Assembly: GCA_021234155.1 (NCBI GenBank) | Contig: JAJEKV010000059.1 | Location: 4,090,571 to 4,154,570 of the forward strand | DNA length: 64,000 bases | From: Isoetes taiwanensis | Lineage: Eukaryota; Streptophyta; Lycopodiopsida; Isoetales; Isoetaceae | Direction: 5' to 3' | Part shown: positions 8,508 through 52,749 of the stretch, piece by piece | Position numbering within the stretch: the stretch's first letter is position 1 | Layout of the letters: each line of letters begins with the position of its first letter | Translations under genes and position numbers: made by a program | Notes under the pieces: generated by a model | The model's database searches: none | Told to the model about the DNA's origin: nothing | Seen by the model: the letters and a program-made list of their open reading frames with translations, nothing else

Positions 8508-10144
8508 TCACATTTTTCCACGTCTTGAAGTCTTCCTGGCCACAACCTTTTTTATGGCTACTACCTTCTTCCTCACATAATGGAGGATGTTCTTTCTCTT
8601 TTGAAGGATTTTCTTGCTTGTTTTTGACTTACCAATGGCCAATGTTTCTGAGTCTGGTAGTGGCAAGCAATCAATTAAATGGTCATGTACCTCCAATGGC
8701 AAGTCACATACATTGCCTTCACTTGCTACTTGAATGATCTCTACTTTTGCACAAATTACGAGATGCGAATAAGAATTTACGTCAGGCATATGACTGAGCA
8801 ACTCGTATTTGCCATCTTTAATGGATTTGTAGTATTTGCCTGTCAGGATGACATCGTGTCCGCTGAATTTACAGCCCCATTCATCTCTAAATGCATTTTC
8901 AACCACATGTCTAGGCTCCCTGCATTTGACTATCCAAAACTTGACATTCTCTTCATTGTCGGCCTCTGCATTGATGACAAGATTGTCAACTATTTTCACC
9001 ATTTCTGCCTTCCATTGGTTATCTCTCTCGTATTGCACATGAGTTGTAGGTGTATGCTTCTCCATAATCAGGGGCTTCAACTTAGAGTATGTGTAGCGTT
9101 CTAGCTTCTTTATATTTTTATACCTATTCTATAAACCCTTCTAGCAGCCCTCATAAAAACAGGACAAAAACTTGTGTGCTACCATGATAGGATTGGTTTG
9201 ACAGATAGCTCTAATAGTATGGATGCCCTTCACAATCTCACTATCACGTCTAAACTTTCTGCACACTTCACCTACTCTTATTAGCCAGAATACCCTGTGA
9301 ACATGAAGATTACAAGTTAGTAAATGGTGTGACATTGTATGGAAGTCCTTAAATGAAGTACATATATTACCTTATGATATTGTTGCTAAGATCTTGTCTC
9401 ATCTTGTTAAGTGCTTGTCTCACAAACTCCATTCTCATGTGATAGATGCAGCAATATGTCTCCTATCTTTGAGTAATAAATTTAGGCTTTAAGATTACAA
9501 ACGACCTCAAACCTATCTTCATGTCAGGAAAAGACATGCTTGAATCTTTTATAGAACACTACTTGGATTTTGAAAGACAAATCAAAGATGAAAGAAATCC
9601 AAATTTTAAGACAATAAAAAAAGCATTTAAATACTCGTGATTTTTTCAAGAAGTGAATTGCATGCAAGTTATAAGGTTTCAATGCTCTTTTTCCATCCAA
9701 ATGTCTCCTTAATTTAATGACTTACCTTTTATTTGGAGAGACGCGCGTTTTCGAGATGCAAAAGTTATATACCTTTTCTCGATCTTCATCGGAGAGTTTA
9801 TCTGATCTAGACTTCTTATTAAATATGGACCAAAGTCCTCCAATCTCAGCTGATCTCCTTTTGTCTAGAGCAACATATACAACTCTTCTTTTCAAGTTTA
9901 GAGCCCTTGCAAGAGCAATACGATTCCTACTTCCAGTGACAGCCATCATCAAGGTGGAGGACCTTGTTTGGTTGATATCTCGAGTCTTGAAACATTTCTT
10001 AATAGCGAGAGTCTCCTTCACATTGTTAACAACATGCTTGTAAACATTTAATTCTTTGTTTCCTATGATACCATATTCAGAAAGCTGTTTTGCTACTCTT
10101 GCAAAAATAACACGATTGCAAATTAAACGGGAGTGTTGCATCAC
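8508..10144 (-). pseudogene. Decayed DNA-transposon protein
   Basis: Separate minus-strand pieces read in order like one transposase-type protein. The N-terminal part (9722-10144) ends LSDEDREKVYNFCISKTRVSPNKR. Around 9370-9510 the fragments KIGLRSFVILKPKF and ETYCCIYHMRMEFVRQALN follow. Then 9141-9335 reads AHKFLSCFYEGC. The C-terminal piece 8508-9080 (190 codons open) has KFWIVKCREPRHVVENAF and a Lys/Arg-rich tail. The 'RVSPNK', 'YH', 'LSCFC' order is, from memory, a pattern of large uncharacterised transposon proteins in animals, algae and seedless plants; I cannot name the superfamily. The coding is interrupted by stops and frame changes, so it is inactive. It lies beside element A, but nothing shows that it belongs to A. 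Confidence 0.5.
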
Positions 10145-12003
10145 TCCCGTTTCAAAGATTCCCTTTAAAAAAACACCATGTTTCTAAAATAAGCCTTTTT
10201 TGATAGTTGTTGAGAATTTCTAGAGGTTTGCATTTTTTTTCATGCCATTTTGGCCCATCATTAGGCGAAAACTTTGTACTTATGAAACAGAAATCATAAA
10301 AATAGCGAAATTTAGGCATAGACTTGAAGAGACTGAAAGCATTACAAAAAAAAGCACCAGAATAGAAAGGGAAAAAAAGTAATATGTTTTTAATAAATTT
10401 TTGTACATCAATATTGAAGATTCATTGTAATAAATAATGATAATTTTAATATGCAGTAGTCAAAGATCTACATCATAGTCCTCCTCATTCTTTTTGCTGC
10501 TCTCTGCCGTCTCGTCCTTCTGTTCAATCTGCTCCTTTGCTGGAGACTTAAGTTTTGTATCCTCCTTGTTCTCTGGAATGGTAGCTAAAGCTACTTCTTT
10601 AAGCTCTGCAAAGGTTGCCTCGTCGTCTAGTGAGCTCTCGAGAATGGAGGTTTGTATCTCCGAGGGCGTTAGTTTAGCATAATCGGATGAAGACTTGGCC
10701 CCTAACTCTTGATTTTCATCCGGTAAAGTAGGTAAGGCGACCCGGTCTCATCTTCACAAAATGCACGGCCTCCTTATCAATATCCACGGCTATACGATTG
10801 CGGCCCTTCTTAAGTGCACATGCGATAGTAGTACCGAGAACCGGAGAAAGCATCAAGCACCCAATCTCACGGACGCGAGAACATGTCCGGGGAGATGGTT
10901 GATGAGCTTTTGTGGTTTCGGTAGTGATTTACAATCCTGCCTTGTGCACTTGGGTCCCTGCAATTCGTGAAGACTGCTTTGGAAACTCTAGGACGTTTGA
11001 AAAGTTTTGACAGGCGGCAGTGTTAAAGTGTTCCATGGACCTCTTCCCATCAAAACTCCAATAAGCTACATGAAGGTACTCTACCTTGCTGAGCAACCTT
11101 GGTCCTCCACCATGGTAGTTGATGTTCGTTTTGTACCTAGTGAAGCATTTTAAGTGATGTTAGCAAAAACAAGAAAACACTTCGAAAACCAGAAACAGGA
11201 AACACTATTCCGGAATACACTACGTAATTAAAGAGAAAAGTAATTGTATTCTGGAATAAGACTTACCAGACAAGGTTTTCATATCCTGCCTGAACTGGAG
11301 AACCAAAGTGATTTTTGAAAGCTGATTCCACCAAGCCAGACTGCATGCTCGAATGGAACGTAACTAAACGCCAATGTTTGGCCGTTGAGATGCTTTGATT
11401 CCTTCAATGAAAGCATTAAACTCTGAAAATTTGAAGGGTGGTGGTCGTCGATTCTCGGCTGTCTTTAAGCTTAAACCCGTAGGGAAGATCAGCAATAACC
11501 AAAGTAAAGTCCTGTGGCTTAACCGTTCCGACAAGGTTCGTGCAATCACCATGAATGATTGAATATAAATTGTTTTGATCAAACATGCAGAATCTCTCGT
11601 AGTCGGATGGTTCTGGCTCAACAGTTCTTCTTTCAGCTAACGACCTCTCTTCCCGTGCTGTTCTAACCAAATTCATAAAGCCCTCGGGCAGGTCTTTATT
11701 TTTCTTTTTGCTCTAAAGAAAAACAAAACAACAACTGTCAAGAGATCGTTTGTGCAGAGAAAAGGAATTTTGAGAGTACTTACCCAGCCCTCAAAATTTG
11801 GTGCATATTGCACAATGCGCTCGTCGGATGTGGCAATTGGGTAGAGTTCCTTGCACCTTTCCCATGTTTCGACGTTTAGCTGCTCCATCAAACATGTTTG
11901 ACATGTTATGACGTTCTTTTGGCTGCAAGACATTAAGGAAACAATGAGATTAAACGTAAGAATCAAGGCAAAGTAAAAGGAAAACAACTAAAAGTCAAGC
12001 TAT

Positions 12004-12298
12004 TTGTATTCTGGAATACAAACTGGTTAACTGGTGATGCTACCTCGAAACAATATGCAGAAAATAGTTCTGCTACAGGACAAACACTGCTTGTCTCTAG
12101 AAAAGCAATGTGTATTCCGGAATACAAATTGCTTCTCTAAAGGAACGCATGCGTATTCTGAAATACACATTGCCTTTCTTTCAGAGGAGCAATGTTTATT
12201 CCGGAATACACATGCCTTTCTTTAGAGGAGCAATGTGTATTCCGGAATACACAATGCTTTTCTAGAGACAAGCAATGTGTATTCCGGAATACACATTG
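12004..12298. repeat. Palindrome motif 1 cluster in intron 3 of element A
   Basis: Six units built on TGTATTCCGGAATACA lie in the intron between exons 12396-12620 and 11784-11922: about 12004-12022, 12105-12132, 12149-12175, 12190-12214, 12229-12256 and 12271-12298. Several extend to GCAATGTGTATTCC plus its complement. Spacers are about 14-80 bp (mostly 15-17) and often contain TTCTCTA/TAGAG-like sequence. Single diverged units also lie in intron 2 (near 12655) and intron 5 (11206-11217 and 11245-11258). Confidence 0.9.
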
Positions 12299-14322
12299 CC
12301 CGTGTGAAGGAAGGCATCGTGATTCGAATACACTATGTACCGATGTTTTTGGGAATCTAACATGCAAAGAGTAAAGTTTGTGTCAGAGAACTTACTTGTG
12401 CAATTCCTTTGACATTTCTTCTAGGCTAAACTCCTTATCAACAACTTTTTGGAGAAGCTGCTCCAGAAGCTCCGTGTCGGAGAAGCCCCCGCATTTCCCT
12501 CGGACGGTAATGGTCATTTCTTTTTGGGCACGTCCAGGTTTTTTCTTGGCTGTCTCCTTGCCCTTGCTCTTTAACTCCCTATTTCGAACATTGTGAATAT
12601 CTCGTCACGAGTTCCCAAATCTGTTCAAGAAGATTTCACGTCAAATAGTTGGTTTGCTATTCTGGAATACATTTTGTGCTTACCTTGCCATCTCTAAAAG
12701 CTAACTGAAACTAGTTGTCGTGGCCAATGAGAGACTGCCTTTTATTGGCCTCGTCATATTTCAGGCAGCATTCAATGGCACACGCCTCCTTAAGCTCCAA
12801 GGAAAATGCTGGCTTCTTAAGGTCCTCACCGTACTTTTCCTTGAAAATTACATACTCCCTGTGCATAAACCGGATCTTGTCGACAAAGCTCATCTTTAGT
12901 TTGTACTTTCGTTGTCGAGATTGTGGATGTTGGCAACGATTTTTGCTTCTTCATCCGTAAGAGACCACGAGCAGCTTGAGGGGGCGGAGAGGTACCTCGG
13001 GTTCTTCTTTTCTTTGTAAAGTTGCCTTCTTGCCTTGAAGCTATGATTCCCTCCCAAGACGTAGTGAGTGTAGGTGTCAGCGTTTTCTCTGTCATACTCC
13101 TGGGGGGTTGTGCACTGCTCCCTGTCAACAAGGACAACTATTGGGGCCACATGAGCATTTGGATTGCTCCTTATTCTGTCCTTCAGGTTCCTCAAGTGAT
13201 CGGCATAAATTTTGCGAACCTGAAGTGGCCTTTCACCAGCTTCATTTTTCGGAGGAAGCTTCATTGAAGTGACTGGCAAATAAATGACACCTTGCACAAA
13301 CTTGTGCAGGTTAATCTCTTCCATTTTTTCAGATGTTTTATCAACTTTTTTTTCCTTAATAGCAACACCAGGTGCTTTACCCTTCCCCTTCTTCTTCTTA
13401 GGTTCCTCGGGGACTTCTGTGATTTCAAGCTGCTGTGCTTTCCGCTTCTTTGGTTCTTTAGCAGCTATGGTTGCCCTTGGCCTGCTAAGTTTCTTTGGCC
13501 GCACAGGGGGTTCTTCCTCGTCTTGTTCCTGGGAACCTCCATCTGATGACCTCCCTGAAGAACTAGCATCTGAGGGTGGTGATTGTGACCTTTCTCCATC
13601 TGAATGCTCGGACTCACTGACAGGAAAGTCCTCGCTTGTACTGGTACAAACCTGTCTAATTACTGAACACAGGCTTCTTTTTGTCCGGTAGTGTGAAAAG
13701 AATTTGTACAGTGCCTGTGGTTGCACACTGACAATTCTAAAAAATGCGATGTCCACAACTATGAAGCCTTGGGAGGTCTTGAAGGATAGCCTCCCCACCT
13801 GACCACCTTGTCCGGCAACCTCGGAGACATCTTTTATTGTCCCAAGGTTCACAAACTCGGAGTCGGCGTACCTTTTGTTACCAGCACTTTTACAGACGTA
13901 CAAAAACGTCAGTGTGCTGTATTTTCCATCTGCACCCCTGGTTACGAACCACTGCGTTTGAAAGTTTTCGTAAATAGCAGGTTCGTCCGTGTCAGCGGTG
14001 TGCTTTTGTGGGTGTGGACGCTTAGGCTTATGAGATTTCTTTGATGCCCTCTTGCTTCCTTCTTCCCTGCCACTGAAACGTTTAAAACAACAATGTTAAG
14101 ACAGAAATTCGAACGAAAACTGTATTCCAGAATAACATTTACTAATCTTGTGCCCTAAAGGCCAGAAAAAGACAGGAAAACAAGCAGAAATATAGTAACT
14201 CTAAGACAATTTTTTGTGCCTTAATTGGACTCGAAATTGTTATTTTAACCTTTAAAGTGGTCTGTTTTAGCTAAAAGGTGTCTTATTTAAGTGCTAAAAA
14301 ACAAGAGTTTCCAAAAAGACAA

Positions 14323-14696
14323 GCAAAGTGTATTCCGGAATACACTTTGCCCTTCGGGTGAAGAGCAAAGTGTATTCCGGAATACACTTTGCCCTTCGGG
14401 TGAAGTGCAAAGTGTATTCCGGAATACACTTTGCCCTTCGGGTAAGGAGCAAAGTGTATTCCGGAATACACTTTGCACTACAGGCGTAGTGCAAAGTGTA
14501 TTCCGGAATACACTTTGCACTCTGGCGTAGTGCAAAGTGTATTCCAGGAATACACTTGCTCTTTTCACCGAAGGGCAAAGTGTATTCCGAATACACTTTG
14601 CACTTTGCACTTCTCGCCAAATGAGCAAAGTGTATTCCGAATACACTTTGTTTCTTCGACGAGATGGGCAAAGTGTATTCGGAATACACTTTGCCC
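14323..14696. repeat. 42-bp-period array of 28-bp palindromes, intron 1 of element A
   Basis: Nine units start at 14323, 14365, 14407, 14449, 14491, 14532, 14575, 14625 and 14668. The first five are perfect 28-bp palindromes: half site GCAAAGTGTATTCC followed by its reverse complement. The last four have one-base changes at the centre (TATTCCAGGAATA, TATTCCGAATA or TATTCGGAATA). Spacers of about 14 bp are variants of CCTTCGGGTGAAGA, themselves partly self-complementary. The array lies between the tiny first exon and exon 2 of the ParB-methyltransferase gene. Its open frames on both strands are by-products of the repeat. Confidence 0.95.
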
Positions 14697-14760
14697 TACA
14701 AAACCAAATCAGAAAACAAAAGAAAGGCGTACTATGTACTTTATATGCTTACCCGTCCAT

Positions 14761-15093
14761 TGTCTTCGCTTATGTAAATCGGAATACAAACAAATGTATA
14801 TTGATCGGAGGAATTTCGGGCTGGCGACTAAATCTGAAAGCGGAATACGAATCGAAATTTCGATTTTCCTTTTTAAAGGTAGTTCCACCGCGGGTTGTGT
14901 TTTTCTATGTAATGCGGAATACGCCTTGTCCAAACACTCACGGACAAGTGTATTTCGGAATAGCATCTTTGCACACACGATACAAAGAATGTTGCACACA
15001 AAATACTATTAGGAATAGCATTTGTATTCTTGAATATCATTAGTCCAATCGACTTGTGAGTTAGTAACAAGCCCACAATTTTTTTGCAGTTGT
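14761..15093. promoter_or_regulatory. Divergent promoter region of element A
   Basis: About 330 bp separates the ATG of the minus-strand methyltransferase gene (14758-14760) from the plus-strand transposase-like gene. It contains partial motif-1 copies (GGAATAC near 14780, 14843, 14912 and 14958), a TTTAAA box near 14870 that could serve the minus gene, and a polypyrimidine-CAG acceptor at about 15080-15090, suggesting a non-coding first exon for the plus gene. The layout matches the 547-bp gap in element B. Confidence 0.4.
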
Positions 15094-18061
15094 TTGACAT
15101 GGTTAACCGCCTCGCGGAACAAACTTCCACCACCATTTGTTTGCCCAAGTACCTCTACGCCGGATGGAACACAAGACGGAGATGCTTCTTCAACACCTAC
15201 CTCGACAAGGTCTTTGTTGCTTCTCGAAGACACTCCAGTCCAAGAAACTAGCAGACTGCCACCACCTTTCCAACCCTCTCCAAGTCCAAGAGGGAAACCG
15301 GCCGCCACCACCTTTCCAACCCTCACCGTTGCACGTAGCAATCTTCCACCACCATTTGTACCATCCCCCGACACTACAATGGCTCGACCTCAAAGAAATT
15401 TTTGGAACCGACTACCTCCGCTGGCTTTTGTTGTTTCTCCATCTTCACTTACACATGCTAGGAATACAGCACGTTCTGAAGACTGCGAGATCCTCCATCG
15501 CTTCTCCCACCACGATTTCACTACAAATGAAGACGACCCTGCAGAATCTACACCTCTTCACACAAACGTGGTGACACATGGGTTTGCAGAATTTCAGTCT
15601 GCTATAAAAGATATGTTTGATCGAACTCCCTGTGAAGACAATACAACAACTTTCGCTGGCACATCATATGCTGGCCCATCTCCTTCATTCAACACTGCAC
15701 CTCCGCCTTATCCGGGTACAGCTTCACGTGGTTTGTTCTCCTCTACAAGCACACCACTAGGGGTAGAGGAGGTCACCCCCAGAGTAGAACTCTCTTCAGA
15801 AGATGAAGACACCAACGAAGTGCAACGAGATTACACATTCTCTAGCCAATCCACCAAGAAATTCAAGGTGGATTTTAGTTTGAGAGCATGCTCCTCTGTA
15901 AGAAGAAGAAACCTAATGAGAAGACTTTTAAGAAGTAAATGCTGCTCATTGGGTTGCATCAACAAATTTAACATGGCTAAATTACGAGCAATTAGAGACA
16001 ACTACAGTTCAATGACATTGGCTGACCAGAATGCCTATTTGGCCTATCATGTAAGACCAGACCGCAACACCTTCTTGCACTACATTAACCGTCAAGAAGT
16101 TTGCCGAAATGCTTTATGGTTGTCCATCGCTTAGGGTCCACCGAATGTCTAGAATACACAAAAGATCGACAAAAATCCAGCAATTGATGATCATTGTGGA
16201 CCAAGAAGAGTTGTAACCATGCATGCCCTGTCTGCCGTGTCATGGATGGAGAAATATTTTAGAGAAACATGTGAGAAGTCGCCTTAACAAGAACATGTAT
16301 CATTTAACCGATAACATCACCAAAAAGATGTTTTTAATGAGTACAAAGAGACTTGCACTTTCTTCAAAGACATCTCTTACTCACACTTCACCGATCGTGG
16401 AAAAGTGAATTCGGTTTAGTGAAAATTCCCGTGAGACATAGAATGTCCGTTTGTTCAAGGTGTGCGAATTAAAGAGTCAAAGAGAAACCGCAAAGACAGA
16501 GGTCGAAAGAAGTAAGCTCATGTTCTCCAATCTCTCACTTGTTTTAAAGATAATGCTTTGACCTTATTTCTTCTACGAGATATTGTGCAACGTAACCTTG
16601 CCGGACATCGTGAACAACAAGCGCCAGAGAGAAGAAAGCTTGCCAAACACGAAAAAAAGCTCTTGAATGTCCACCGCAATATATGTCTCTGTTAGATTGA
16701 TGGAATGGACCAAAAAACTACTCTACCAAGATTTCTTGAACATTCCTAAAGATGTGCCAGGAGGAATGTTTTGTTAAGGTCCACCTTGTAGGAGCTATGG
16801 TCTTCAAAGGAAGTCTAAAGTGCAAAGTATTCTTGACGATCCAAACTTGCATGGTGACCCGAACCTCACAATTACAATTCTTAACAAGGTCCCCGCGGCG
16901 AAAGCAAGAGCAATTACCACCGCTTGCTTTTTTACGCAACTTGACAATACTACAAGGGAGAACAAGAACCAAACACTCTTTGCGTGATCGTGCCATGTTA
17001 GTGGAGCTAGGGATCTTTATAAAAGTGAAGCTGGGTTTCTTACTTGTAGGCCACACTCATGATCAAATTGACCAAATGTTCAGCAGATTTTTTAGGTGCC
17101 TCGAGGAAGGAAGAAGGCTTTCTCTTCCTACTTTAGTTCGAATTATTGAAGATTCTTACACTCCCACTCCGGTGATCGATCTTCTTAAAGAGACCGCTGA
17201 TTTCGAGAGTTTATTTTCTCTCAACGCTCATCTGAGAGAACAAGTTGCGGAACAAATTGAATGATCTCACCTTTCAACATCACATCAAGTTCTACTTGAA
17301 GGATGACCCGAGTTTCTTACAGGCAAGAAGTATACCACAACTAAGGACCGAGTCCACCGGAGGGATTACGCTTCCTTAAATATATTCCGACACTTCCTTC
17401 AGAGAACGCGGCTTTGAGCAACTTCCTCTCAAAAATCCTAAGGAGTCCAAGCAAAAAAGAAAAGTACCCCAGAAGTCATCCTTAAAAGCCATAGAAAATG
17501 GAATTTCCTCAGGGCTTTAAGTACTTCTTAGAAGAAGATCGAATGTGGTGGAGTAACTTCTTTCTAACAAAAAATTGTTGTGAAAAATATAGCTCTAAAG
17601 ACGGTTGCAAGAACCATTTCAATGGCCTAACACCTTCCATCAACCCCAAAGACCAAGCAGGTTCAAGCAATGCTACGTTAGCACCTGCGCAGAGAAGAAG
17701 ACGAGGATCGAGTCATATACCTCGGACCAAGACGCAGGAATGAGCCTCAAGGTAATATCACGTAAATTACCAAGGGTATGCTAATTGCTCTTCCCATCGA
17801 GGAGGATGACAAAGGTCGACCTTTCTCGATAGCAAAAGTGCTTGACACAAATCAAGGAGGAAGGCTTAGTCACTAAACTCAAGATTCATTGGCTTGCAAC
17901 ACGCCGTAAAAATGCTTTTGAAGGTAGATATGAGTTAGAAATGAGAAGCCAAGGAAAAGGGAGAAAGTCCAAGAAGGTGGGTTGTAGGGATGAGCTGATC
18001 CTTAATGACGTGACTATATTATGCTATGATTTTAAATTGAAATCGACAATCGCTCACGCTT
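15094..18061 (+). pseudogene. Element A: transposase-like protein with GHTH..ID motif (DUF7869-type), broken
   Basis: The first 347 codons (to 16134) are open. They start with four or five repeats around 'LPPPF', then an acidic segment, then the Cys-rich block SKCCSLGCINKF and VCRNALWLSIA. After the stop at 16134 the protein continues in changing frames: IDGMDQKTTLPRFL (about 16696), QLDNTTRENKNQTLFA (about 16943), VGHTHDQIDQMFSRFF (17046-17090) and a C-terminal block (17842-18061) with KIHWLATRRKNAFEG. The same order, CCKH block, 'DxMDQ', 'QLDNxxxxNKN', 'GHTHxxID', is found in the element-B gene at 39.1-42.2 kb. I recall this as the DUF7869 type found in many seedless-plant and animal repeats; a role as an RNase-H-like transposase is likely but inferred. 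Confidence 0.65.
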
Positions 18062-18069
18062 AGAGGACT

Positions 18070-18260
18070 ATCAATTTGCTTAAAAAGCTTGTAATTACGA
18101 AGAAGAGGATGAAGAAGGTGGTGGCAATGCTTCACCATCTGTTGATAGTGATGAGGAAGATAACTCAAGCACTTCCTCTAGTGATAGTGAAAGAAGTGAA
18201 GGTGATGAGGATGGCATAAATGAACATGATGACGCCCCGGATCCCCTCTCATCACTCCTC
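18070..18260 (+). other. Acidic low-complexity coding-like tail
   Basis: Runs of GAA/GAT/AGT codons resemble the acidic tails of the element genes. It probably belongs to the decayed transposase-like protein just upstream, but it is out of frame and cannot be assigned firmly. Confidence 0.3.
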
Positions 18261-18659
18261 ACACTTTTTGTACATAATCGAGTCTTAGAAAAAGATCAGA
18301 ATTTTGCATGTGAATATGAAGATTCTATCTTCAAATTTGGAGAATACTACAGTTTCAGTTACGGACTTACTTCAATTTTTTGTTAAATATTTTATCCTCT
18401 GAAATTAGAGATTCTCTCGTAAAATATACTTCAAGAACATTCTATTTGCTAAGAAAAGTGACACTTTAAAAATGTCAATTCTTTGGTTGCACAAAAAAAT
18501 TAGTCATTTTGGGGGGGGGGGTCAAAATAGAATTTCATGCATCTTTTTTTTTTTAACCTAGTTTTACCCCCTTTTGTAAAAAAAAAGAGGGAATCTTTGA
18601 GGAATATTCCTTTCGCTCTCGTTTCGATGATTTGCTCCCGTTTAATACGCAATCTTGTT

Positions 18660-19330
18660 AAATCTCTTTTCTATCCTCAAAATGCAAATTGAAGCATACC
18701 TTATTTTTTGGTGAAATCCACGATTTCCTTGGCCAATTTTTGTTTCTTTTTTGTGGTGATTTTTTCGTTGCTCTTATCTGCTCCAAAGACCAATTTCTCA
18801 GACTCTCTCTTCCTCTTTCTTTGCAATCTCCTTTTAGCTGATAGAATGCTTCTACATGCGGTATTTGGGGATACACAATTGCACACTATTTTACAATCAT
18901 CTAAGCATGTTCTAGAGGCTTCAGAAACTGGAGATACAGGAGATGAAGGCACCATGCATATGGATCCACAATTTCATGGATTTCTTGTGGATTTAGTGCC
19001 CATACTGCACAATATAGTTTGAACTAAACTCATCCAAAGCAATATCAAGAGCAGGAGCAATCTCTTCTGGATCTTGGCCATCAAATTGAGCTGCAAATTC
19101 AGCAGCATACCTTTTAACCAAATCCATTGATTTCCATTCAAAATGTTTTTGCTGAACCAAATATTCTCAATCTAATTTTCAAAATTCGCTTGGAACTGCT
19201 TCAGCCCGCCAATTTGGAGCAGGAGAACTAGCTCCTATAGCCGGATCGCTGACATGGCCAACTAATTTTCCAATTAGGATGAGTCAAGCAAATCACTTTT
19301 CGTGCCGTTCTTCATCATTCTTCAACCTAT
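18660..19330 (-). pseudogene. Unidentified decayed coding fragment
   Basis: Minus-strand pieces read like protein but carry stops: VSDPAIGASSPAPNWRAEAV, HFEWKSMDLVKRYAAEFAA, QFDGQDPEEIAPALDIALDE (about 19030-19260), and a basic Ser/Lys-rich part at 18701-18955. I do not recognise the family. Low GC flanks and nearby poly-G (about 18511) and poly-A runs suggest a repeat environment. Confidence 0.25.
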
Positions 19331-39000: not shown

Positions 39001-39120
39001 AAAGAGGAAGGAGGGGGGGGGGGGGCAAACTTTATAAAGCACAATTTCATTATTTTTGTACAAAACCTGAATTTATGGACCATTTTTTGGATTCATACTT
39101 CAATAACAATTTTTTCCACA

Positions 39121-42100
39121 CTAATAAGCATCACCAGCGAGGGCTGCATATGCTTCAGCAACGGGCTTCTTCCTGTTCGATGGAGACCAAGCAAAGTCGA
39201 TTGTCTTCAACTCAATGCGATCACTAGCAGTGGTTGGCCTCCATCTTTTCTTCCAACAGTTTACATAATTGGCTGGGTACACTTGGTTCCTTACGGGGAC
39301 AGGCTCCCACCAAGTGATCTGTACTGCCTCAAAATTCAACTTCTTATCATCCATCTGGGGCTCCTCCGTGGCGTATCCTACCCATGTGGGACACAAGACG
39401 TCATCAGGACGTGCCATAATGAACATACCTTTCTTCACATCCTTGAATGGATTGAATTCTGGTATGGGTTTATCCTTCAATGGTCCCACGTATGGAGGAG
39501 CGATGCTTGCAATTGGCTCCGCTACTGCAACTATTTCTGGAAGTGAGCTCGTTCTTGCCTGGTGCATGGCCAAAAGTCGTCGTAAGTGCCTTCCGGGCAC
39601 GAGATCTTCCCTAGCTCCTATAAAAGACCGATCCAATACTCAATGGTAGCCGTGAATTGTGCGGAATAGTTGGCTGTTTCCGGGGTGCCTTTCTTGCTTG
39701 TGGAGATTGCAACCCAATGAAAGATGTGCTTGTGGATGCTGTTTCACAGCTGGCCAAGGTCTTTTACTGTTGCCTTTGGTTTAAGCAGCTTGGGTGTTCC
39801 AACAGGCATTATGGGCTTCCCGTCTACCCCTTCCTTCCACATTTTTATACCGCCTGTAGGCAGCCAATCCAAGAAGCACGGACGAGTTTTGTAATACATG
39901 ACAGGCCACTCTCCATTCATTGCAAATTTGAATGTCAGGGGGGTGGTGTGGCCAGTCAATCTATCATCGCCGTCGGATATGTACCCTTCTATAAACCCCT
40001 TCCAATCTGGCACTTTATCAACAATGTATGGTACAGGTGCATTCAGATTGCATGTGTGGAACTCAGATAATAATTCGGGCATGGTCAGCACTTCGGCCTT
40101 CTTCAGAGTGGAGGAGAATTTGCCAAACAAAGCATCAATGTCTTCGTGTGTATGTCCAGGCATCATGAAACCCAACTCTATCTCCTCGAACACACCAAGA
40201 TATACTAGGTATGAAAGATACGAGAATACATACCTGTTTTTGTTTTGACCCGAAGCATTGTCCAGTTGCAGCAACAGTGTTCGGGGGAGGGGCTTGAAAG
40301 AAGGTCCTTCTGGTCTAGGCAAGCTTGCAGGGATGTTGCTATTGGTGAGTGCCAATTTCGATTTGAGTGCCGCATTGTTACGCAAGGAAGTCACCCAAGC
40401 TGGAGCTGATGTTTCCGGCATTGTAAGATGGCCTCCTGGATACTCATGAACCATCTCCAGCCTTCTCAAGATGCAATTCAAAGAACCCACATAGAAGTTC
40501 GAGTCATCTGGCCATAGATCCAAAGCAAAGTTTCCATAGCTTCCCCACCCATGACCATGAGTGAGAGCACCCGTCAATGATGTTTTGAGTTTATCCAGTC
40601 TCCAAAGTGACTTCACCGATTGCTGCAATTTTGGAATCATTGTCTTTGCCTAGTCCATCTTATCATGAATTATACAAACATAGTTTTTGGGATACCTATG
40701 GGACAATAATCTCCACGACCAATACTGGATACGACAGGAGGCTTGCTCCAATCTGTGTGCTCTTCTCTGGTCATGCAATATCCTCCTTTCTACCTCATCC
40801 TTTGTCTTCAACAGCTTCGTACGAATGACCTCACATGTATCACATTTAGAGAACGGATTTTTTTTTGCGATACTGACATCCCTAAAGCTCCTTTTACAAG
40901 TTCTATGAAACCCCACTGGCAAGACTTTCTTGCCTGTCAGTGCCATAACTTCTACATTCACCTCTTCTAGGATGCTTGTTTTCGTAAACATTGCAGGCAA
41001 CTTCTTAATGTTTTCCCGGATGCCATCTTCATTCCTCCGACTACGGTGAGGCAAGGATTCGCAATTCTCCCTTACGAATATGGAGAAAACTGCCTCGGAT
41101 GCTAAGGTGGATGCACGAGGCTTCAAACTACCACAGTTCCCGTGCTCTGCTTTGCGAGCACCCTCCATGTATTGTGCTTTCCATTTCAGATACCCTGACT
41201 TTGAGATTCCCAACCCAAGGTACCAGGCTCTCTCACAGACTAGCCTGCTATGCAACACTAGACATTCCACTCGATAGCCTTTCATGTTGTTCCCAAGCAT
41301 GTCATACACAAATGTCACCCTGTCGCTAGACTTTATTGCATAGAACTCCTTGCGCATGTTGATGACCTGATTATGTGAGAACTTTGCACAACACCTGTGT
41401 TTGCAACACAACGTCGTTCAATATTTCAAAATAGCCTCCCTAGGGCTAAGGCGTTCAATCTTAGGCTGTCTCAAGAACCGCCTACGCTGAGGGAGTGGAA
41501 AGTGTACTTGCGCCTCTCGAAATTTGGATGCTTCTCAATAACAGAGCTAACTTGACTTGACAGAGTATCTGCTTGCTCGGTTGGCTTTGCAGTCAAGATC
41601 ACAGAAACCTTTACACCATCCAATGTAACATATTCATTACTCCACCTAACAAGCATACTTGCTTTTGGTACCTGTAAACAAGCCTGACAGCGGAAATTCA
41701 CTTCAGCAGGAATCGGGTAACCCTCAACAATTGTCACTCCAATGCATTTCAACCCTAAGAACTGGTCGCATACTGTATCATCTGGGCCTGTAAAGGATAT
41801 GAACCCTTGTCCCGCAGGAATGGAGGCGCAAGAGTGCCATATTTCACAGTCCTTCTCCAGTAAAGTGTATCTGGTCTGGGGGATAGGTTCCATAGTAGAT
41901 TCCACTCTCTGTTTTTTGGAGGTGGACCCGACATTCTCTATATTGGATTCACAGACGTCTTCCTCTCTCCAAAAAATGAAGGATCCTTTGGCTTCTCCTA
42001 TAGTTTTACGCATCCGGAGTGGGCCATGGGAGGGCGTGACACTCCTCAAAAACCTCTTGAACACCAACAGCAGCGGCTCCAACGGGGATGGTTCTGAAAT

Positions 42101-42247
42101 GGCACTGGTTAGAGTATCCAGCAAATCCTTTGGCAATGGGACGACCATCCTTAGAGATGTACACTTCTTGCGAGCGTAGGAGAGAACATGGGGCCAAGTT
42201 ATTGAGAGCAGGCGCTCAAGAATGAAGGCTTCAAAAGCAGAAAGCAA
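39121..42247 (-). pseudogene. Element B: transposase-like protein with GHTHEDID motif (DUF7869-type)
   Basis: Exon-like block 41471-42247 (258 codons) is an N-terminal region of unknown fold with a CxxC (FRCQAC). Then 41411-40653 starts with the Cys block CCKHRCCAKFSHNQV and VCERAWYLGLGISKSGY. It runs to IIHDKMD, hits a TAG at 40650-40652, and continues in the same frame (AKTMIPKL; 39744-40640) with GHGWGSYGNFALD, LLQLDNASGQNKNRYVFSYL (about 40232-40262) and MMPGHTHEDIDALFGKFSS (about 40133-40160). The C-terminal 39121-39636 (WVGYATEE, ITWWEPVPV, YVNCWKKRW) needs a frame change near 39700. One nonsense codon and one shift make it a recent pseudogene. The motif order equals that of the element A gene. 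Likely a transposase; the catalytic residues are not established by me. Confidence 0.7.
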
Positions 42248-42794
42248 TAAACATAAATGGGAGGAATTCGAGATCCGAATTTGAATTACTCAGCAAATTC
42301 AAATTCAGAATTCAAATTCTCCCCCCATTTATATGCATTTAATAGAGGGCAAACTTTATTAATGTTATTTGGGACACGTGCGCGATGTCATTATATCTAG
42401 CGCACGTGTGTATATTCAGATTTTTTGGAATTTCAAATTTGAATTGTGAACCCTCAGCCATCAGCCCCCCTTTATTACTTTCAAATACGGCTTGCCATGT
42501 GGCACCCACATATTGGTGGACGCGGGATTGCCAGGTGGCGTCCAGGATTCCGTTCATTACGGTGCCTGCCCATTATTTATGGACTACAACGGTCCATTAT
42601 AACCGGAATTCGACACTTGTCCTCAGCCGGTGCAACCTCGGTGCATGCCTCGCTTATAAGTATAGTTTTTTCTGGATAGCCGCATTTTCAACAGTCCAAA
42701 GTTTCGCTTCGAAACAAAAGCTAACCGTTGTCACGGATCTTAGGACAAAGCCCATCCACATCTTGGCGACCGCACCGCTTTCTCGTATTGCTTG
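42248..42794. promoter_or_regulatory. Bidirectional promoter of element B
   Basis: 547 bp lies between the divergent start codons. Toward the minus gene, ATATAAAT lies at about 42329-42336, some 85 bp from the ATG at 42247. Toward the plus gene, TATAAGTATAG lies at about 42654-42664, some 135 bp before the ATG at 42795. The middle contains inverted and direct AATTTGAATTC repeats near 42275-42320 and 42425-42440. The paired TATA boxes support a real divergent transcription unit. Confidence 0.5.
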
Positions 42795-43085
42795 ATGGAA
42801 AGTCGTCCCACTAAAGGAGGCAAAGGTAATGCTTGCATCACTGCCGAGTTGCTGTCACTGTTTATTTATTTTTTAATAATGCTTCCCAAGACAACATGGC
42901 ATCTATTCTATCTTCCATCTATTCCCCCATTTGCTTTAAAAGAAGCTTGCTCCTCTTCATTCCGATTAAATCACGGTTTCTTGCAATAATCAACTGTTTT
43001 TCCTTCTAATCCCTCTCTATTCTATCCTCTAACTATCCCCCAGTTCCTCTAGAAGAAGATTTCACCTAATTCTTGTGCTCTGAAC

Positions 43086-43762
43086 AGGTCATGTGCTTGA
43101 TAGTCGAACCCTAAACTTGCTTCCCTCAGTAAAATGGGTGCCCACCCTATTTTTCTGTTAATCACAGCTTTCAACAGGTTATGTGCTTGATAGTCGAACC
43201 ACCTAACCTTGCTTCCCTCAGTAAAATGGGCGCCCGCCCTATTTTTCTGTTAATCACAGCTTTCAGCAGGTAATATGCTTGAAAGTCGAACAACCTAACC
43301 TTCCTTTCTGCTCAGTAAATTGGGTGCCCGCCCTATTTGTCTATTAATCACAGCTCCGAGCAGGTCATGTGCTTAAAAGTCGAACCACCTCACCTTCCTT
43401 CCCGCTCAGTAAATTGGGCGCCCGCCCAATTTCACTGAGGAAATGTCTCTGCGTCAATTGCGAGCACTTAGTAAATTGGGCGTCCGACCGTTGCACCTAG
43501 GAAGTGTGTATGCCTCAAGATCATCCACCGTTATGCTTGTCAGGTTGGTGGCCAGTCCTGGACCTGGCAAATTGGGCGGACGCCCAATTTTAGAAGGACA
43601 TACCTCTCCCTTGGCGCCCCCCTGAACCATTCCACCTTAGTTCAAGATAAGTAAATTGGGCGGGCGCCCAATTTATCTCTGAATTGTATGCCCAATTTTG
43701 GGTATCCAGGATTTCTTGGACATCTTGCGCCCCCTTTGCAAATTGGGCGCCCGGCCAATTTA
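43086..43762. repeat. Intron-1 repeats of element B: ~90-bp tandem units carrying palindrome motif 2
   Basis: Tandem units start at CAGGTcATGTGCTTGA (43086), 43175, 43266 and 43361, spacing 89-95 bp. Each contains an (A)AAT(T/G)GGGCGCCCGCCC core and an ACCTTGCTTCCCTCAGTAAA block. Cleaner motif-2 copies follow at 43411-43432, 43569-43590, 43653-43674 and 43739-43762. Motif 2 is two 10-bp arms, AAATTGGGCG and CGCCCAATTT, around a 2-bp centre. Confidence 0.9.
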
Positions 43763-45485
43763 CTGTAATACTGTCGGTCAACTTGTACTTCATGGTACTT
43801 ATGGTAAGCAGTACTTAATTCTTGTTTGATGCAATGCAGGACTAATGGCAAGGACAAAATAGGCGCCGCATGCGGCTATGGACTGGGATACGCATTTCAT
43901 TCTTTGCCGCGAAAGAGACAGAACAGGATGTGACATTTCAAGGGATTGAAGTAGTTCCAGAAGAAATCACTTCTGTTGCTGACAACACGTGGTGCATTGA
44001 AATTGGAAACGTAAATCCTAAGTCGAGCACAAACCATCTCAAGGATTTATGTTTTATATTTTGCCGCGAGGGGACAAAAAAAGACAAGCAATGCGGGGAT
44101 AACAATTGATATGGGGGTAAACACAGAGGTACCCGCGAGATAGAGGTTTTGTGGAAGACGTATTGGACAAGTGCTTCTGTGCATACATGCTACCCCTTGC
44201 CACTTATGACCCCCAACTCATGTCAGCAAGCATTACCGAAAATCAAAACTCCTGCGCCGCAAAGGGTTGGCAGATGAACTCATACGAGAGCTTGGAAAGA
44301 TCTGGAATTAGAAAGCGTGGAGACGTTATAGACGGCTTCAACATAGTCAGGCAGTGGATTCTTGATCACAAGCAGACTAGGTTGAAGGGCTTGTATACAG
44401 AATATCATGAGAAGGCCCAGCCAAAAGTGTACGATTCGGCCTGGTTGAGGTCTCGATATGGAGTTCCCAAAAAGGGAGAAGCAGAAAAAAGTGTAGAGAA
44501 GTCTAAGAATGTAGCAGTTGAAAAGGGAACTGCTGCAAAGAAGAAGAGATCATCTTTGACAACAAACCCCAGCATTGAGACGCCACTTGTCATGCTTGGA
44601 GGTATGGAAAAGAGAGCAAGATCCTCTGATCCGAGCAATAGTGCTGGAGAATCTTCTGAACATTCTGCTGACCTTCGGTTCAGCAAGAAACAAAGAGCAG
44701 AAGAACAAGCAGGCACCTCCTCTAAGAAACGAAGACGTCCCACTCCGCCTCAGACTTCATCTGAGATAAGCGAAGACAGTGAAATGTCTAGCGATAGTGG
44801 AGAAGGGGGATCATTGCCAATTGTACAGTATACAGCCTCTACTGGGGAGTTAACACAGGAAAGTAGGCGTGAATTATCTCAGAGCGCCATGTTGAACATC
44901 AAGCATAGGGAGAGGATTTATCCACTCGGTATTGGGTTTTTGAAATTGACGTCGACATATTCAAGATGCATCAAGCCCCTGCCAACATGGCTTGCAGGGT
45001 CATCAGTGCAGAACACGTAGATACCCTTTATGAATCTTTCATAACTATGCAAATGCATCCTCCGTGTGCAGGTGTCATTCCATTTGACCCGTCAACAGGG
45101 CATGCTATGAAATGGAAGAGAGCAAGTGATTTGGACAATGCGGAATTCTGGATCGTCAATGGAAATCACACTACAGCCGTTGCTCAAATCCTTGTGAACC
45201 AGGCTTTGGAATGGCCCTCAGAAAGGAAGCATTTAAAAGATTTGATCTTTTTCTTTTACGCCAAGAGAAAGTGTCGTGTACTGGCTGGAAACCTAACTCC
45301 AACGGAATATGTTAAGGTCAGCCAGGAAACAAATGATATCATAGTCAAGACAATCTTCGAGCAGGTCCAGCAACTTCAACAATCGGGGAACTCGTATGGC
45401 AAGCCCAAGAAAGGGGGAAGTGGTCAATCAACGGAAGGCGCTCTCTGTGAGTTGTCTCCCCATTAACCCCTGTCCCATGCAATCC

Positions 45486-45600
45486 AAATCGGGCGCCCGC
45501 CCAATTTCAACCATGCCATTGTTCTTCCAATCTCTTGTAATCTCGGACCTCCAATCGAATGCACATGCATGTTCACTCCAAATAGGGCGCCGCCCAATTT
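45486..45600. repeat. Motif-2 palindromes in intron 2 of element B
   Basis: Two copies, 45486-45507 and 45580-45600, lie between the gtgagt donor at 45447 and the CAG acceptor near 45708. The second has lost one centre base. Confidence 0.85.
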
Positions 45601-46642
45601 CAAACCCTTAATACGGTCCATATTGTAGTTTAGGTCTCCAATTCTTGTGTCATCTCATCTTGTCTTACGGTATCTTTTGTTTGCGGGAATGGGTAGCTAT
45701 CGTGAAAAGCAGCACCAAGAAGAATAAGAGCATCTTGGGACTATGATTACCGTCTATCTTGACGATGAAACTTGGAATATGTGCACTTTTCGTGTCGCTC
45801 AACTTTTACGAGGGACGAAGTGAAGGATGAGAATGGCGATAGAATTGAAGTCAAAGATCGTCTAAGGATGTTCACAAACAATTCTTGTCGGCCACTGAAG
45901 TCTATGCACCCCATGGACTTGTAGAGATTAATGAGGGAGATCATGACAGGCACCACGTTCTTCAAGGCCACGAAGGCTTATAAAGGAAGGCGTGTCATGA
46001 AGACAAGAGCGCAATAATTAAGGAAAATTGGCATTAACAAAGTTTAAAATGAAACGCACTTATTTGCTGCAAACGCACTTCAAAAGGAATCTTTGAAAGA
46101 TTCCCTAAAATTCCCTTAAAAAATGCCCTTTTCTTGGTATATTTGTGACAAGTGTGACAATTTGAATATTTTAGGCACCATTTTTGGAGGGGAATTTGAA
46201 CTCAGCTTCCATTCAAAATTGTTTGGTACCATTTTTTGACCCCCTAGTTTGGTTTGAGAAATAGTAATATTTTTAAGGACAAAACAAAATAGACATTGAA
46301 AAAAAAACAGCAAAGCCTAAGAGTGCCCAAAAACGTATTTAGTTCAAAGTTTATAAATTCACTACAAAATTATGAACAAAATTGCAAAAAATGCAACACA
46401 TTTTGATATTGCCTCAATGAAGCAAATATTGTCACCTTAAAGTATGCCTCACACGTGAGGTGAAGTCGAAGATGCTTGCGCTTTGCTTTATACACTTGCT
46501 CTTATTTGCTCCTCCAAATTTTGCTATAGACTTACGTATACCGCTTGATGGCTTACGTATGTATCCAATCACGGACTTTTTTAAACTTTGTAATTTATTT
46601 GTTCTCTGTAGTCTTTAGTTTCTTCCAAATAAATTTCAAGAT

Positions 46643-47016
46643 GGTATAAATTTATACCTTAATAGATAGTAATATGTGGACATAGTATGCTAGAGAGTTC
46701 ATGACGGTATAAATTTATACTTAAAGAAGACTTGAGCGGTATAGATTTATACAACAAAAGAACTCGGCGGTATAAATTTATACAAAAAAAGGACTCGGCC
46801 CGGTATAAATTTATACCATAAAGAGGAAAGCGGTATAAATTTATACCAAGAAGAGTTTTCTGTGTATAAATTTATACTAAAGATATATATATATGTATAT
46901 TATATAAATATATAATACATATATAACATATATATTTACATATATATATCAGAAAAAAGAGAGTCTTGCGGTATAAATCTATACCATGAGACTTCTATGT
47001 ATAAATTTATACCGCT
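46643..47016. repeat. Palindrome motif 3 array: GGTATAAATTTATACC
   Basis: Units lie at 46643-46658, 46706-46720, 46738-46752, 46769-46783, 46802-46817, 46831-46846, 46862-46877, 46970-46986 and 47000-47016, about 30 bp apart in the dense part, and one further at 47776-47790. Three are perfect 16-bp palindromes. They alternate with (TA)n-rich DNA at 46885-46950 and 47030-47120. All copies lie inside the nested transposon. Confidence 0.9.
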
Positions 47017-47426
47017 TTTTGTTTTTATATATACAAATATGTGAACATATATATATATTGAATATATATATATATATATTAACATGTATAAGATGTATAT
47101 AGATATATATATACATAAAATATGTAGTCCAGAGTATAAGTTTATATTGTGCAAAATCTTGTGGGGTCTTTCTTGCTCCCAAAGGTTTTTGCAACTTAAT
47201 CTTGTTGAAATAACACACTCAAGGGATAATTTTATGCGATTTTTCTTAGTTTTTTAGTTCAAAAAGTTCTAAAATAGTTCTAAATTCTCTCGACCTTGTA
47301 ATGCAATGTTAGAGCATAAATTAGTCGAATCCCGTTGTTATTTTTTTTTTTTTTTTCTACACACATGCTAACTTCACTTTAGGCAGCTCAAAACCGCTTC
47401 TAAAGGCAAAAGGACCCCAAAATGTT

Positions 47427-47741
47427 ATGGAGACACATGTGTTCAACGAGAAGGAAAACTTCGTGAGTTTGTCCATAGGGGTGCGAGGGAGTAGCAACCC
47501 CTCAAAAGTTTACCTATTTCTTTGCAAAATGGACAAAAAAAAAAAGCAAGATAGACAAATACTTCTCTGTGGAGAAATGTGCGGTGTGGCCGCTACTGAG
47601 ATGATGGAATTGTCTTTGAAGACTCTCAACATTGACAAGGAGCTTGACTATCTTCTCAACATCACTATATTGTGGATTGGTATTGTGCAAGCCCAAAGAC
47701 ATGATGAATACATCTCGAGAACAACAAAGAAGGCCATGTAA
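47427..47741 (+). CDS. Small ORF of the nested transposon, unknown function
   Basis: 104 codons open from METHVFNEKENFVSLS. It contains a Lys-rich turn (KMDKKKKQDRQ) and a helical C-terminal part (LSLKTLNIDKELDYLLNITI). I do not recognise it. It is the longest open frame in the element and is bracketed by motif-3 palindromes. It could be chance or one exon of a small gene: GT and AG sites exist nearby, but none is decisive. Confidence 0.3.
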   Translation: METHVFNEKENFVSLSIGVRGSSNPSKVYLFLCKMDKKKKQDRQILLCGEMCGVAATEMMELSLKTLNIDKELDYLLNITILWIGIVQAQRHDEYISRTTKKAM

Positions 47742-49029
47742 TCACAGAGCTTCACTACTTCAACTTCGTTTCCTCGGTATAAATTTATCGGCATCGTCGG
47801 TTGGAACTTCAACTAAGCGCATGATTTCGTGGATGTATTATCATTTGTAATACCATATGATGCAAAAACAATAATTTTTCATTCAAGCGGTTTGTTCAAC
47901 TGTCTCCCAATGTCTTTTAAGGTCAATTAGGATGTTTAGCCAAAATGGTTGTGAAATAACAAATTTTTGTCTTCTATAGCACCCAATATAAACGTTCTAA
48001 GGGATAAGATACAAAAGCGTCTAATTTTTTCATATGAGTTTGCCCCATAATAAATCTTTGGCTTTCGTAGTGGTCCTTTTTCCCTCTAAAATGAGATATT
48101 TTTCTTTGTTGTTCTTCTCCTTAATGTTAAGTCTTCCTAAAATGTCTGTTTTCATGAGCAGTTTTATAAATCTTTAGACACAAGATAGTAAAAGAGTCCT
48201 TTTTAGGGGTATTTTAGAATTTTGTAAATTTTTAGAAGGAATCTTTCAAACGCACTTCTTAAATAAGTGCGTTTCATTTTAAACCTTGTTCATTGTTGAG
48301 CGTGCATTACTGAAATATCTAAGAGAGGTGAAGAAGTTAAAAGTCGAAAATATGGATGAAGTCAGACAGTTTCATCCCATATTCACAGAGAACCTCATGC
48401 TAATGTTTGCAAACAATGTCAGTGATTGGACAGAGAGTCGAAAAGAAGCTGAGAAGGAAAATCTTCCAGAGACTCTAATTATAAAAGTTAACGAATACCT
48501 CCGTGGACCAGTTGAAGAGGGTTCGAAGGCTTTCAAATGCCTGACTGTCAGTCCACTGGGGATGTGTGTTAATGTCATGAATACGTCAGCACGTCTTGTT
48601 GGATGTGACTTTAGGAACCTTAAGAAATGGTCGGTAGAGGAGTATCAGAAATTCATGGATCAGATTAGTATCCTAACGGACCAGCAGTTATATTGGATAA
48701 CGATATTCATCAGCCCAGAGCATTTGAATGAGTGCTTGGCTGCAATGAAAACAATAGATGGTGGTAGTCGGGTGTGGATTAGAGCCTACCAGGATCCAAA
48801 AGCAAAGTCGGGGTCAACCTCTAGAGTTCGTGAGCTTCAGAGTCTTGTCTTGGTCATGTACGTGGCCCGAGACCAAGTGGCAACTCCTGCACTGGATGAC
48901 TTGAATGTATGCTTTATAGACAGTGACCATCCACAACAACATTGAAATTTCCCAAAGATCTTAAAGAGGCAGAGGACATCGAGAAAACTTACCGTGACGC
49001 TTGAGTGCTTTTGTGGGTAATATTCTTTG

Positions 49030-49051
49030 AAATAGGGCGATCACCCAATTT
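49030..49051. repeat. Motif-2 palindrome in an intron of element B
   Basis: AAATAGGGCGATCACCCAAT-type unit between a gtaata donor (near 49018) and the TTTCTTTTTCAG acceptor ending near 49088. It is the only notable sequence in this 70-bp intron. Confidence 0.8.
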
Positions 49052-49981
49052 ATGTGTTGCTTTTCTTTGAAATAGTTTCTTTTTCAGCAGTATTGGTTAA
49101 TATCGTCCACAGGGTGATAAGAGTGCAAAGCGGTGGAGTGCGGACCCCTCGTTCCGAATCAACTACAAGCCAAGACTTGCACGTATTTGGTGCGCAAACT
49201 AATGATGGAGAGTTGCAGCGTTCTTGATTTCTTTTCTGGAGGTTCATTCGTGCAGCACCATGCGAAGGATACAAAGCAACTTTTTTGAGATGAACGAGAA
49301 CCTGTAGCTCAAGCTAGTGCAGATCTTCGATCAACTAGAAATAATGTTGGACGAAAAGAAATCATTGGCCCGCAGGAGGCAGAAAATTGCAGAGGGCAAG
49401 AAGAAGAAATCTGGTTCCAAGCCATGCGGTTACAAAAATCACCGCCTGTCGGCAAATCCATTCTCTCTTTCGATACGGTTCGGGAGGCGCAATCCCTTGC
49501 AGAGCAAATAAAGAAGGCTGCAGGATTAAGAAGTAAGGATATATCCATCTTAGAATGAAAAAGATAAAATTAATATGTTGGCGGGGAACCCAAGTGGTGA
49601 ACACTCGGGATGTCATTGGCGGTGAGTTCGAAATTCAATGAGATAGTGGACAATGATCGTGAGGAATCCTTCATCAAGGACACACCTCAAAGTCAACAGG
49701 ACGAAGAGCCAGATAAAGCACGAGAGCATGAGGAAGAACAAAGGCAGGTAGACAATACAGACAGAATATCCGATGTGGAGAAGGAGACCGGTGAGGTAGA
49801 CAGAGGTGAGGGAGAGACAGGTGAAGAAGGTGGCTCACTGAGCAATGAAGAATTCATTAACATGATGGAAGCTATAAAGCAAGCTGCCCAAATAACAACA
49901 AGATCAACATAATGACGTCGACAACACTGAAGAGAACCCCCCAGACCCGTGAACAAAGGTTGGAGTTTCGGAGAGTTGCTG

Positions 49982-50242
49982 AAATTGGGCGCCCGCCCAA
50001 TTTCAGCAGTCACATCTGTCGAATCAATATTATATCATGTAATTTTGTATCTAAGATCAAACATGTAATCTTGTATCTGTGACAATTTTGAAATCATGAA
50101 ATACAAATTTTTCTTGTGATGCTGTTCATTCTATTGGATTTAATTGGTTGTATACTAATAGAACGTCTGAGATAATTGGGCGGGTGCCCAATTTTCCTGC
50201 GCTAGAAGAGTCCCGCATAGAAATTGGGCGGGCGCCCAATTT
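49982..50242. repeat. Motif-2 palindromes downstream of the element B gene
   Basis: Three copies at 49982-50003, 50173-50194 and 50221-50242. The first follows the stop codon of the methyltransferase gene by 70 bp; the copy in B' has one at the same place. Confidence 0.9.
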
Positions 50243-50449
50243 GAACCCTGGGGTGGGCGGTAGCAACCAGTGCCAGCAGTTGAACGTGAAGTGGTGGAAG
50301 TGCAGAAAAAGTGGAGGTCGAAGAGCACAACTTTATAAATTACTCAGGTTCGATACATGAAATAATATTCACTATGCTTATACATCCTTACATATTTCAG
50401 AATTGCTTATATCATTATATCCTTAACAGGTACACAAGTCATCACTGTT

Positions 50450-50692
50450 TCACTCATCATCAACACCTGCTGAGGTGATGGCATTCAGCTCATAGATCTC
50501 CTGATCAGGATGCCAAATAAGGTGGATCACAACACGAGTGAGCTCGGGGCAACGAATCTCAGGACCACGAGCTTTGGATTCTAGCCAGGGATCAAGCTTG
50601 ACACCCTTTCTCAAGCATTCATCAAGATCAAGGTAGCTCATGGAGCACTTGATGGTTTGGATGTGCTCAGGACGAGGAGGCAAGGAAGCCAT
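50450..50692 (-). CDS. Small paralogous ORF P1, unknown function
   Basis: I do not recognise the family. The likely start is the methionine at 50692 (MASLPPRPEHIQTIKC) because a TATAAAAG box lies at about 50731-50738, too near the upstream ATG at 50719. Shared features with P2 and P3, in order: proline-rich start ending 'PE/PER', a 'C.M...' segment, a 'DPW'-like motif (KLDPWLESKARG), then VVIHLIWHPDQEIYELNAIT. About 81 residues, single exon. It lies between motif-2 palindromes. Confidence 0.55.
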   Translation of the reverse strand: MASLPPRPEHIQTIKCSMSYLDLDECLRKGVKLDPWLESKARGPEIRCPELTRVVIHLIWHPDQEIYELNAITSAGVDDE

Positions 50693-50834
50693 GGGAGATG
50701 AATGACCCTTACCAACCATTTGGAGCTACTTTTATAGTGAAGTAAAATTATAGATGTCAATTATTGGTGTAGATTGTACTGCCATTATTGAGCATGTACA
50801 AGTATCATGTACAATTATCATGTACACGTACGAG

Positions 50835-50935
50835 AAATTGGGCGGCCGCCCATTTTCAAGCGGAGCCATTCACTTCGGATTTTTGAGGACAATTTGGAAT
50901 AAAGCATTCCAACCCAAATTGGGCGCCCAATTCGA
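50835..50935. repeat. Motif-2 palindromes between P1 and P2
   Basis: Copies at 50835-50856 (centre GCCG) and 50915-50935, the second shortened at the centre. Confidence 0.8.
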
Positions 50936-51086
50936 AAGGGAATGGATATCAATATTGTTTCACAGGAGTCATATACAAGACAAGTTGGACTAATAGTTTA
51001 TCTCAGAGAACTGTGTATTACAAAAGCATGTGTGATTGCGTTGGATAATAACACAATCTGATTACAACAAGATGACAAGTATTGAT

Positions 51087-52728: not shown

Positions 52729-52749
52729 TGCTTCGTTCTGAATCTATGC

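Follow-up and report, generated by a model that had tools for sequence, protein, structure and literature searches.

Element-specific palindromes in transposons of Isoetes taiwanensis as candidate operator sites of an element-encoded protein

Described systems and their relation to the locus

In the VANC/VANDAL system, a protein binds a motif and removes 5mC. The motifs are short, occur as tandem repeats within introns and between the genes of Arabidopsis VANDAL elements, and differ between related elements, as far as the available part of the description goes; the motif of VANC21 reads YAGTATTAY (PMC5735166). A second group of described elements comprises Sola1-1 of Ectocarpus and other algal transposons with an accessory gene that combines a ParB-like part and an N4/N6 methyltransferase. 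In Ectocarpus Sola1, the accessory gene and the transposase are encoded on opposite strands. For such ParB-MTase proteins, binding to and modification of the own transposon were suggested (PMC12477816, with Iyer 2011 and Petroll 2025 among the references in the part available).

The DNA analysed here is a stretch of 64 kb from Isoetes taiwanensis, referred to as the window. It contains the elements A and B, the element C nested within B, and a fragment D. One trait of the VANC/VANDAL system is found within the window, namely an element-specific motif that is repeated in non-coding DNA. As in the Arabidopsis elements, the motifs are short, often in tandem, located in introns and intergenic DNA and dependent on the family (PMC5735166, available part). 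An earlier note on this DNA had called the intronic placement unusual; the VANDAL elements, as described in the same source, provide a precedent. In contrast to the sites found here, YAGTATTAY is no long palindrome (PMC5735166), and the coding parts differ: the candidate partner protein in A carries a methyltransferase domain, and the second part codes for DUF7869. Neither a Mutator-type transposase nor a VANC-type protein was found in the pieces scanned, for which DUF7869 and N6_N4_Mtase were the only Pfam families above the cut-off.

The gene of element A resembles the accessory gene of Ectocarpus Sola1-1 in its similar predicted domain pair and in its orientation, which is opposite to that of the transposase (in A, the likely transposase; PMC12477816). 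Unlike the algal elements, A is a DUF7869 element in a land plant, and a cognate site array is absent from the algal description in the part available (PMC12477816). Among the literature matches listed (titles and starts of abstracts), none describes palindrome arrays in such elements, and a literature search for DUF7869 returned no paper. ParB-MTase proteins had already been described from algal transposons and proposed to mark the element that encodes them; relative to the available parts of these sources, the candidate sites are new. The palindromes are concrete candidate targets for self-marking ParB-methyltransferase proteins and differ between elements, by which the idea becomes testable. 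If true, self-recognition of the VANC kind would exist in a second system, outside the Mutator-type elements. With moderate confidence, the palindromes are taken to be element-specific DNA operator sites to which a dimeric, element-encoded protein binds.

Element A and the distribution of its palindrome

The features of element A are as follows (TIR, terminal inverted repeat).

10108..18660, no strand: element A, with imperfect 26-bp TIRs at 10108-10133 and 18635-18660
10460..14760, minus strand: gene for a putative ParB-like / N6-N4 DNA methyltransferase, broken, six exons, from splice consensus and frame
15034..17264, plus strand: DUF7869-side ORFs of A, likely transposase (PF25273 2.9e-23, in ORF 16740-17264)
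14322..14697, no strand: intron 1 array, 42-bp units around TGTATTCCGGAATACA
12084..12300, no strand: intron 3 array, 41-42-bp units, core as in the intron 1 array
14121..14136, no strand: dispersed site in intron 1, TGTATTCCGGAATACA with 3 mismatches
12656..12671, no strand: dispersed site in intron 2, TGTATTCCGGAATACA with 3 mismatches
12005..12020, no strand: dispersed site in intron 3, TGTATTCCGGAATACA with 1 mismatch
11204..11260, no strand: two dispersed sites in intron 5, TGTATTCCGGAATACA with 2 and 3 mismatches
14773..15038, no strand: four degenerate sites upstream of exon 1, at 14773, 14908 and 14949 (3 mismatches) and 15023 (4 mismatches)

The TIRs of A reach an alignment score of 37, compared to a maximum of 33 in 100 shuffles, and an AAAT direct repeat is found at the ends, provided that the terminal T/A pair is assigned to the flanking DNA. 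Within this TIR-bounded element, the DUF7869 ORFs and the methyltransferase gene are divergent on opposite strands. The DUF7869 protein is likely the transposase in both A and B. On the minus strand, the exons of the methyltransferase gene are located at 14760-14753 (exon 1), 14072-12684 (exon 2), 12620-12396 (exon 3), 11922-11784 (exon 4), 11712-11267 (exon 5) and 11136-10460 (exon 6). As interpreted here, the gene is interrupted at 10 places, most of them frame shifts and one or more of them stops; either the copy itself is broken or indel errors are present in the assembly.

The read-through protein of the methyltransferase gene of A, named as such in the earlier note, matches PF01555 (5e-08) over the last quarter of the profile. 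Among the pieces of A, B and D that were scanned, the N6/N4 DNA methyltransferase domain is found in A alone. The search for relatives of the read-through protein among 7595 candidates yielded three, namely a protein from Riccia sorocarpa (P0001, 2.7e-34), one from Adiantum nelumboides (P0002, 1.2e-12) and one without a name (3.1e-5). The Riccia homologue itself matches PF01555 at 1.1e-07, and a homologue search with it recovered only P0001 and a second Riccia protein. Exon 2 of A alone as query gave no homologue, where a length limit may exclude full-length relatives. No relative of P0001 was found in the viral contigs, and no match to phage proteins was obtained with exon 2, the only query used for them.

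With up to three mismatches, TGTATTCCGGAATACA has 18 matches in the 64-kb window, compared to a mean of 0.28 and a maximum of 3 in 100 dinucleotide shuffles. All of them are located inside element A, at 11204-14964, and the palindrome is family-specific within the window, as had been proposed. Relative to the splice-consensus exons, 15 of the 18 matches are intronic (six each in introns 1 and 3, two in intron 5, one in intron 2 and none in intron 4), and three are found upstream of exon 1 (14773, 14908 and 14949, three mismatches each). The absence from exons reported in the earlier note is reproduced, with 0/18 matches in predicted exons. The confinement to introns does not hold, given the three upstream matches and the site with four mismatches at 15023. 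All four introns named before (1, 2, 3 and 5) contain matches; exact copies (n = 8) are restricted to introns 1 and 3, where they form two arrays of 41- to 42-bp units, and the copies in introns 2 and 5 are degenerate (2-3 mismatches). When each array is counted once, seven of seven loci in the gene are intronic, compared to an intron share of 33% (~4e-4, calculated by hand). The half-sites TGTATTCC/GGAATACA have 29 exact matches in the window, 28 of which lie within A; one of these, at 15461, falls within an ORF on the DUF7869 side. The sole exact match beyond A is located at 35975.

A 12-bp core, TATTCYRGAATA, is intact in all five dispersed intronic sites and only partly kept at the sites upstream of exon 1. 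In the intron 1 array, perfect palindromes are found in five units (28-34 bp), and four further units, at 14538, 14581, 14631 and 14674, have a centre of 3 or 1 bp instead of 2. The perfect palindromes of the intron 3 array span 12-28 bp. The outer arms read AAAG/CTTT in the intron 1 array and AATG/CATT in the intron 3 array, and each array is symmetric despite this difference. One exact copy of TGTATTCCGGAATACA was also seen in each of two viral contigs (L001 502-517; L002 5365-5380).

The location of the sites bears on a possible role of the DUF7869 protein. In both A and B, its ORFs form the second main coding part, and the palindromes could be binding sites of this likely transposase. This is very unlikely because the sites of A are far from the TIRs (the left TIR is ~1.1 kb away, the right one ~3.6 kb); moreover, they cluster on the methyltransferase side.

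Elements B, C and D and their palindromes

The window was scanned for recurrent palindromes, defined as 7-bp half-sites that are repeated as their inverse within 0-4 bp, with at least three copies. Low-complexity half-sites, consisting of one or two letters or containing six to seven equal letters, were excluded. In the 64 kb, seven half-sites with at least three copies were found, which correspond to three palindromic words; none of 40 dinucleotide shuffles had any. One word is located in A, one in B and its relative D, and one in the nested element C. Each word is found in one or two elements within the window. The corresponding features are listed below.

39032..52982, no strand: element B, with imperfect TIRs at 39032-39061 and 52953-52982
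39121..42289, minus strand: DUF7869-side ORFs of B, likely transposase (PF25273 2e-42, in ORF 39744-40649)
42795..49912, plus strand: broken gene of B, with a tiny exon 1 (42795-42825) followed by intron 1, borders by eye
43131..43761, no strand: eight B sites in intron 1 of B, AAATTGGGCG-NN-CGCCCAATTT with 0-6 mismatches, four of them in a 92-94-bp tandem array
45486..52028, no strand: nine further B sites, at 45486, 45579, 49030, 49982, 50173, 50221, 50835, 50917 and 52007
46036..48290, no strand: element C, nested in B, with a terminal CATT direct repeat and TIRs that differ at 2 positions of a 33-bp alignment
46643..47013, no strand: nine C palindromes, GGTATAAATTTATACC with up to 2 mismatches
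60790..62070, minus strand: fragment D, a relative of the gene of B, with two degenerate B sites at 60790 and 61702

The TIR scores of B and C are 35 and 56, compared to maxima of 30 and 29 in 100 shuffles each. A 4-bp target duplication was looked for at the ends of B and none was seen. The gene of D is a sequence relative of the gene of B (2.1e-14, 5.3e-12); its best TIR score of 19 is below the shuffle maximum of 27. With up to seven mismatches, the 22-mer AAATTGGGCG-NN-CGCCCAATTT occurs at 18 places in the window, 16 in B and two in D. None of 17 B sites checked (50917 included) overlaps a listed ORF of at least 120 aa in that stretch. GGTATAAATTTATACC has 10 matches in the window with up to two mismatches, nine in C and one in B at 51375. 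In both A and B, the main array is located in intron 1 after a tiny first exon (8 nt in A; 31 nt in B, by eye), and B sites also occur past the end of the gene of B. In addition, B contains three short ORFs of 82-101 aa that look alike by eye (IHLIWHPDQEIYELNAIT and similar), at 50450-50719 (minus), 51087-51335 (minus) and 51491-51796 (plus). These are perhaps a small accessory gene family.

Inverted repeats in introns could act at the RNA level, as hairpins that influence splicing or give rise to small RNAs. Strong folding was obtained for all three array units of A that were folded (z -5.5 to -7.3), the outer arms differ between the two A arrays but remain symmetric, and the GC-rich arms of B would probably fold as well. 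This reading is unlikely overall, since four of the five dispersed intronic A sites show no hairpin at the palindrome (the folding was done on A sites) and sites occur outside genes, upstream of that of A and beyond that of B. For these reasons, among the options raised in the earlier note, a DNA site is favored over an RNA hairpin.

The tandem arrays, with units of 42, 94 and 31 bp, are also consistent with neutral palindromic minisatellites that have expanded in non-coding DNA through template switching or slippage and have no binding protein. The variable centres in A are in favor of this reading, and coding constraint, which would keep such repeats out of exons, could by itself account for the absence of TGTATTCCGGAATACA there. 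Slippage alone, however, explains neither the dispersal of one core over four introns and the region upstream of the gene of A nor the presence of the B word in the diverged relative D, and the three elements have three different palindromes. A purely neutral origin is rather unlikely.

The candidate binding protein and its possible role

For the operator sites, the likeliest candidate binder in A is the ParB-like/N4-N6 methyltransferase whose gene holds them. The label ParB-like is putative and rests on a sequence pattern, R...VLVD...YVLGGNH, that is present in A and Riccia and weak in B. ParB proteins usually have GERR where the protein of A has GGNH. No match to a ParB domain was found in Pfam, NCBIfam and PHROGs for the proteins examined, and PDB searches with the ParB-like part gave nothing or chance matches. 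The AlphaFold models are poor (mean pLDDT of 35 and 39) and lend no support to a ParB fold. Like those of bacterial ParB/parS, the sites of A are 16-bp palindromes and clustered. Unlike them, the site sequence of A departs from the parS consensus, and neither an HTH nor the CTPase motif was found: no ParB or HTH family is matched and GGNH replaces GERR. The parS-like nature suggested in the earlier note is not supported by these results.

The element-specific palindromes suggest that the own protein of each element recognises the DNA of that element, and B and C would use a protein related to that of A. In direct pairwise comparisons of the A and B proteins, the scores were equalled by 205/500 and 255/500 shuffles; for Riccia P0001 and the ParB-like part of B, the score was equalled by 6/500. 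Profile matches to B have E values of 0.084 (the best ORF outside A among 1615) and 0.47. The ParB-like and linker regions of the B protein are weakly similar to the protein of A, and no Pfam methyltransferase match was found in the pieces of B and D scanned. D is no better than shuffles when compared to A or P0001 (343/500 and 420/500 as good). Judged by sequence, the link between the B and A proteins is weak, which lowers the confidence in operator sites as the nature of the palindromes. An ORF of C (47325-47741) was considered as the N-terminus of an A-type protein, which is not supported; shuffles were as good in 9/300 (A), 72/500 (B) and 494/500 (P0001) cases.

The 2-bp centre of the B sites is variable, with CC in seven, GG in six and TC, GA, AT and GC in one each (17 sites tallied, 45579 and 50917 excluded), as expected for two half-sites that are read by a dimer. 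The words of A and C can likewise be written as half-site, 2-bp centre and half-site. Their centres are mostly self-complementary, and a 2-bp centre is fixed in B only. For A and C the spacer is just a way of writing, given the self-complementary centres and the four A units with 1- or 3-bp centres. A half-site plan common to A, B and C is suggestive only.

Following the operator-site reading, a dimeric element-encoded protein would bind the palindromes. Introns, the promoter and intergenic DNA tolerate new sequence, and the sites would therefore increase in number there as tandem arrays. Binding would mark the own DNA of the element, probably through local methylation, and would counter host silencing or regulate the divergent promoter, comparable to the action of VANC proteins on VANDAL elements. 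A more specific version has a small chance of being correct. Here, the bacterial-type protein of each transposon family would load on its own palindrome array and spread or methylate N6A/N4C nearby, the resulting self-mark would shield only the own copies from silencing, and families would diverge by joint change of protein and palindrome.

Methylation could also be directed at the palindrome itself, in the style of restriction-modification. A has the N6_N4_Mtase domain, and the bases A and C are present on both strands of the words. This is extremely improbable: the words are 16-22 bp long and usual restriction-modification sites are much shorter.

At CpG positions within the sites, all 12 substitutions are of the deamination type (A 5/5, B 7/7), whereas the remaining 38 substitutions include 10 transitions. 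The pattern hints at methylation of these copies by the host (5mC) and, like the broken state of the A copy, speaks against the operator-site reading. No significant increase was seen in the rate of CpG decay at the sites (p 0.059 for the core in the eight dispersed sites of A, 0.30 for B). Helical phasing of 21 collapsed spacings gave p about 0.015-0.022 at 10.5 bp, yet the best period is 7.2.

Elsewhere in the window, ORFs resembling LINE reverse transcriptases were recognized by eye at 19478-20791, 31969-32397 and 54457-54987, and degenerate tandem repeats with GAATCTAAGA-like units are located at 32551-33786.
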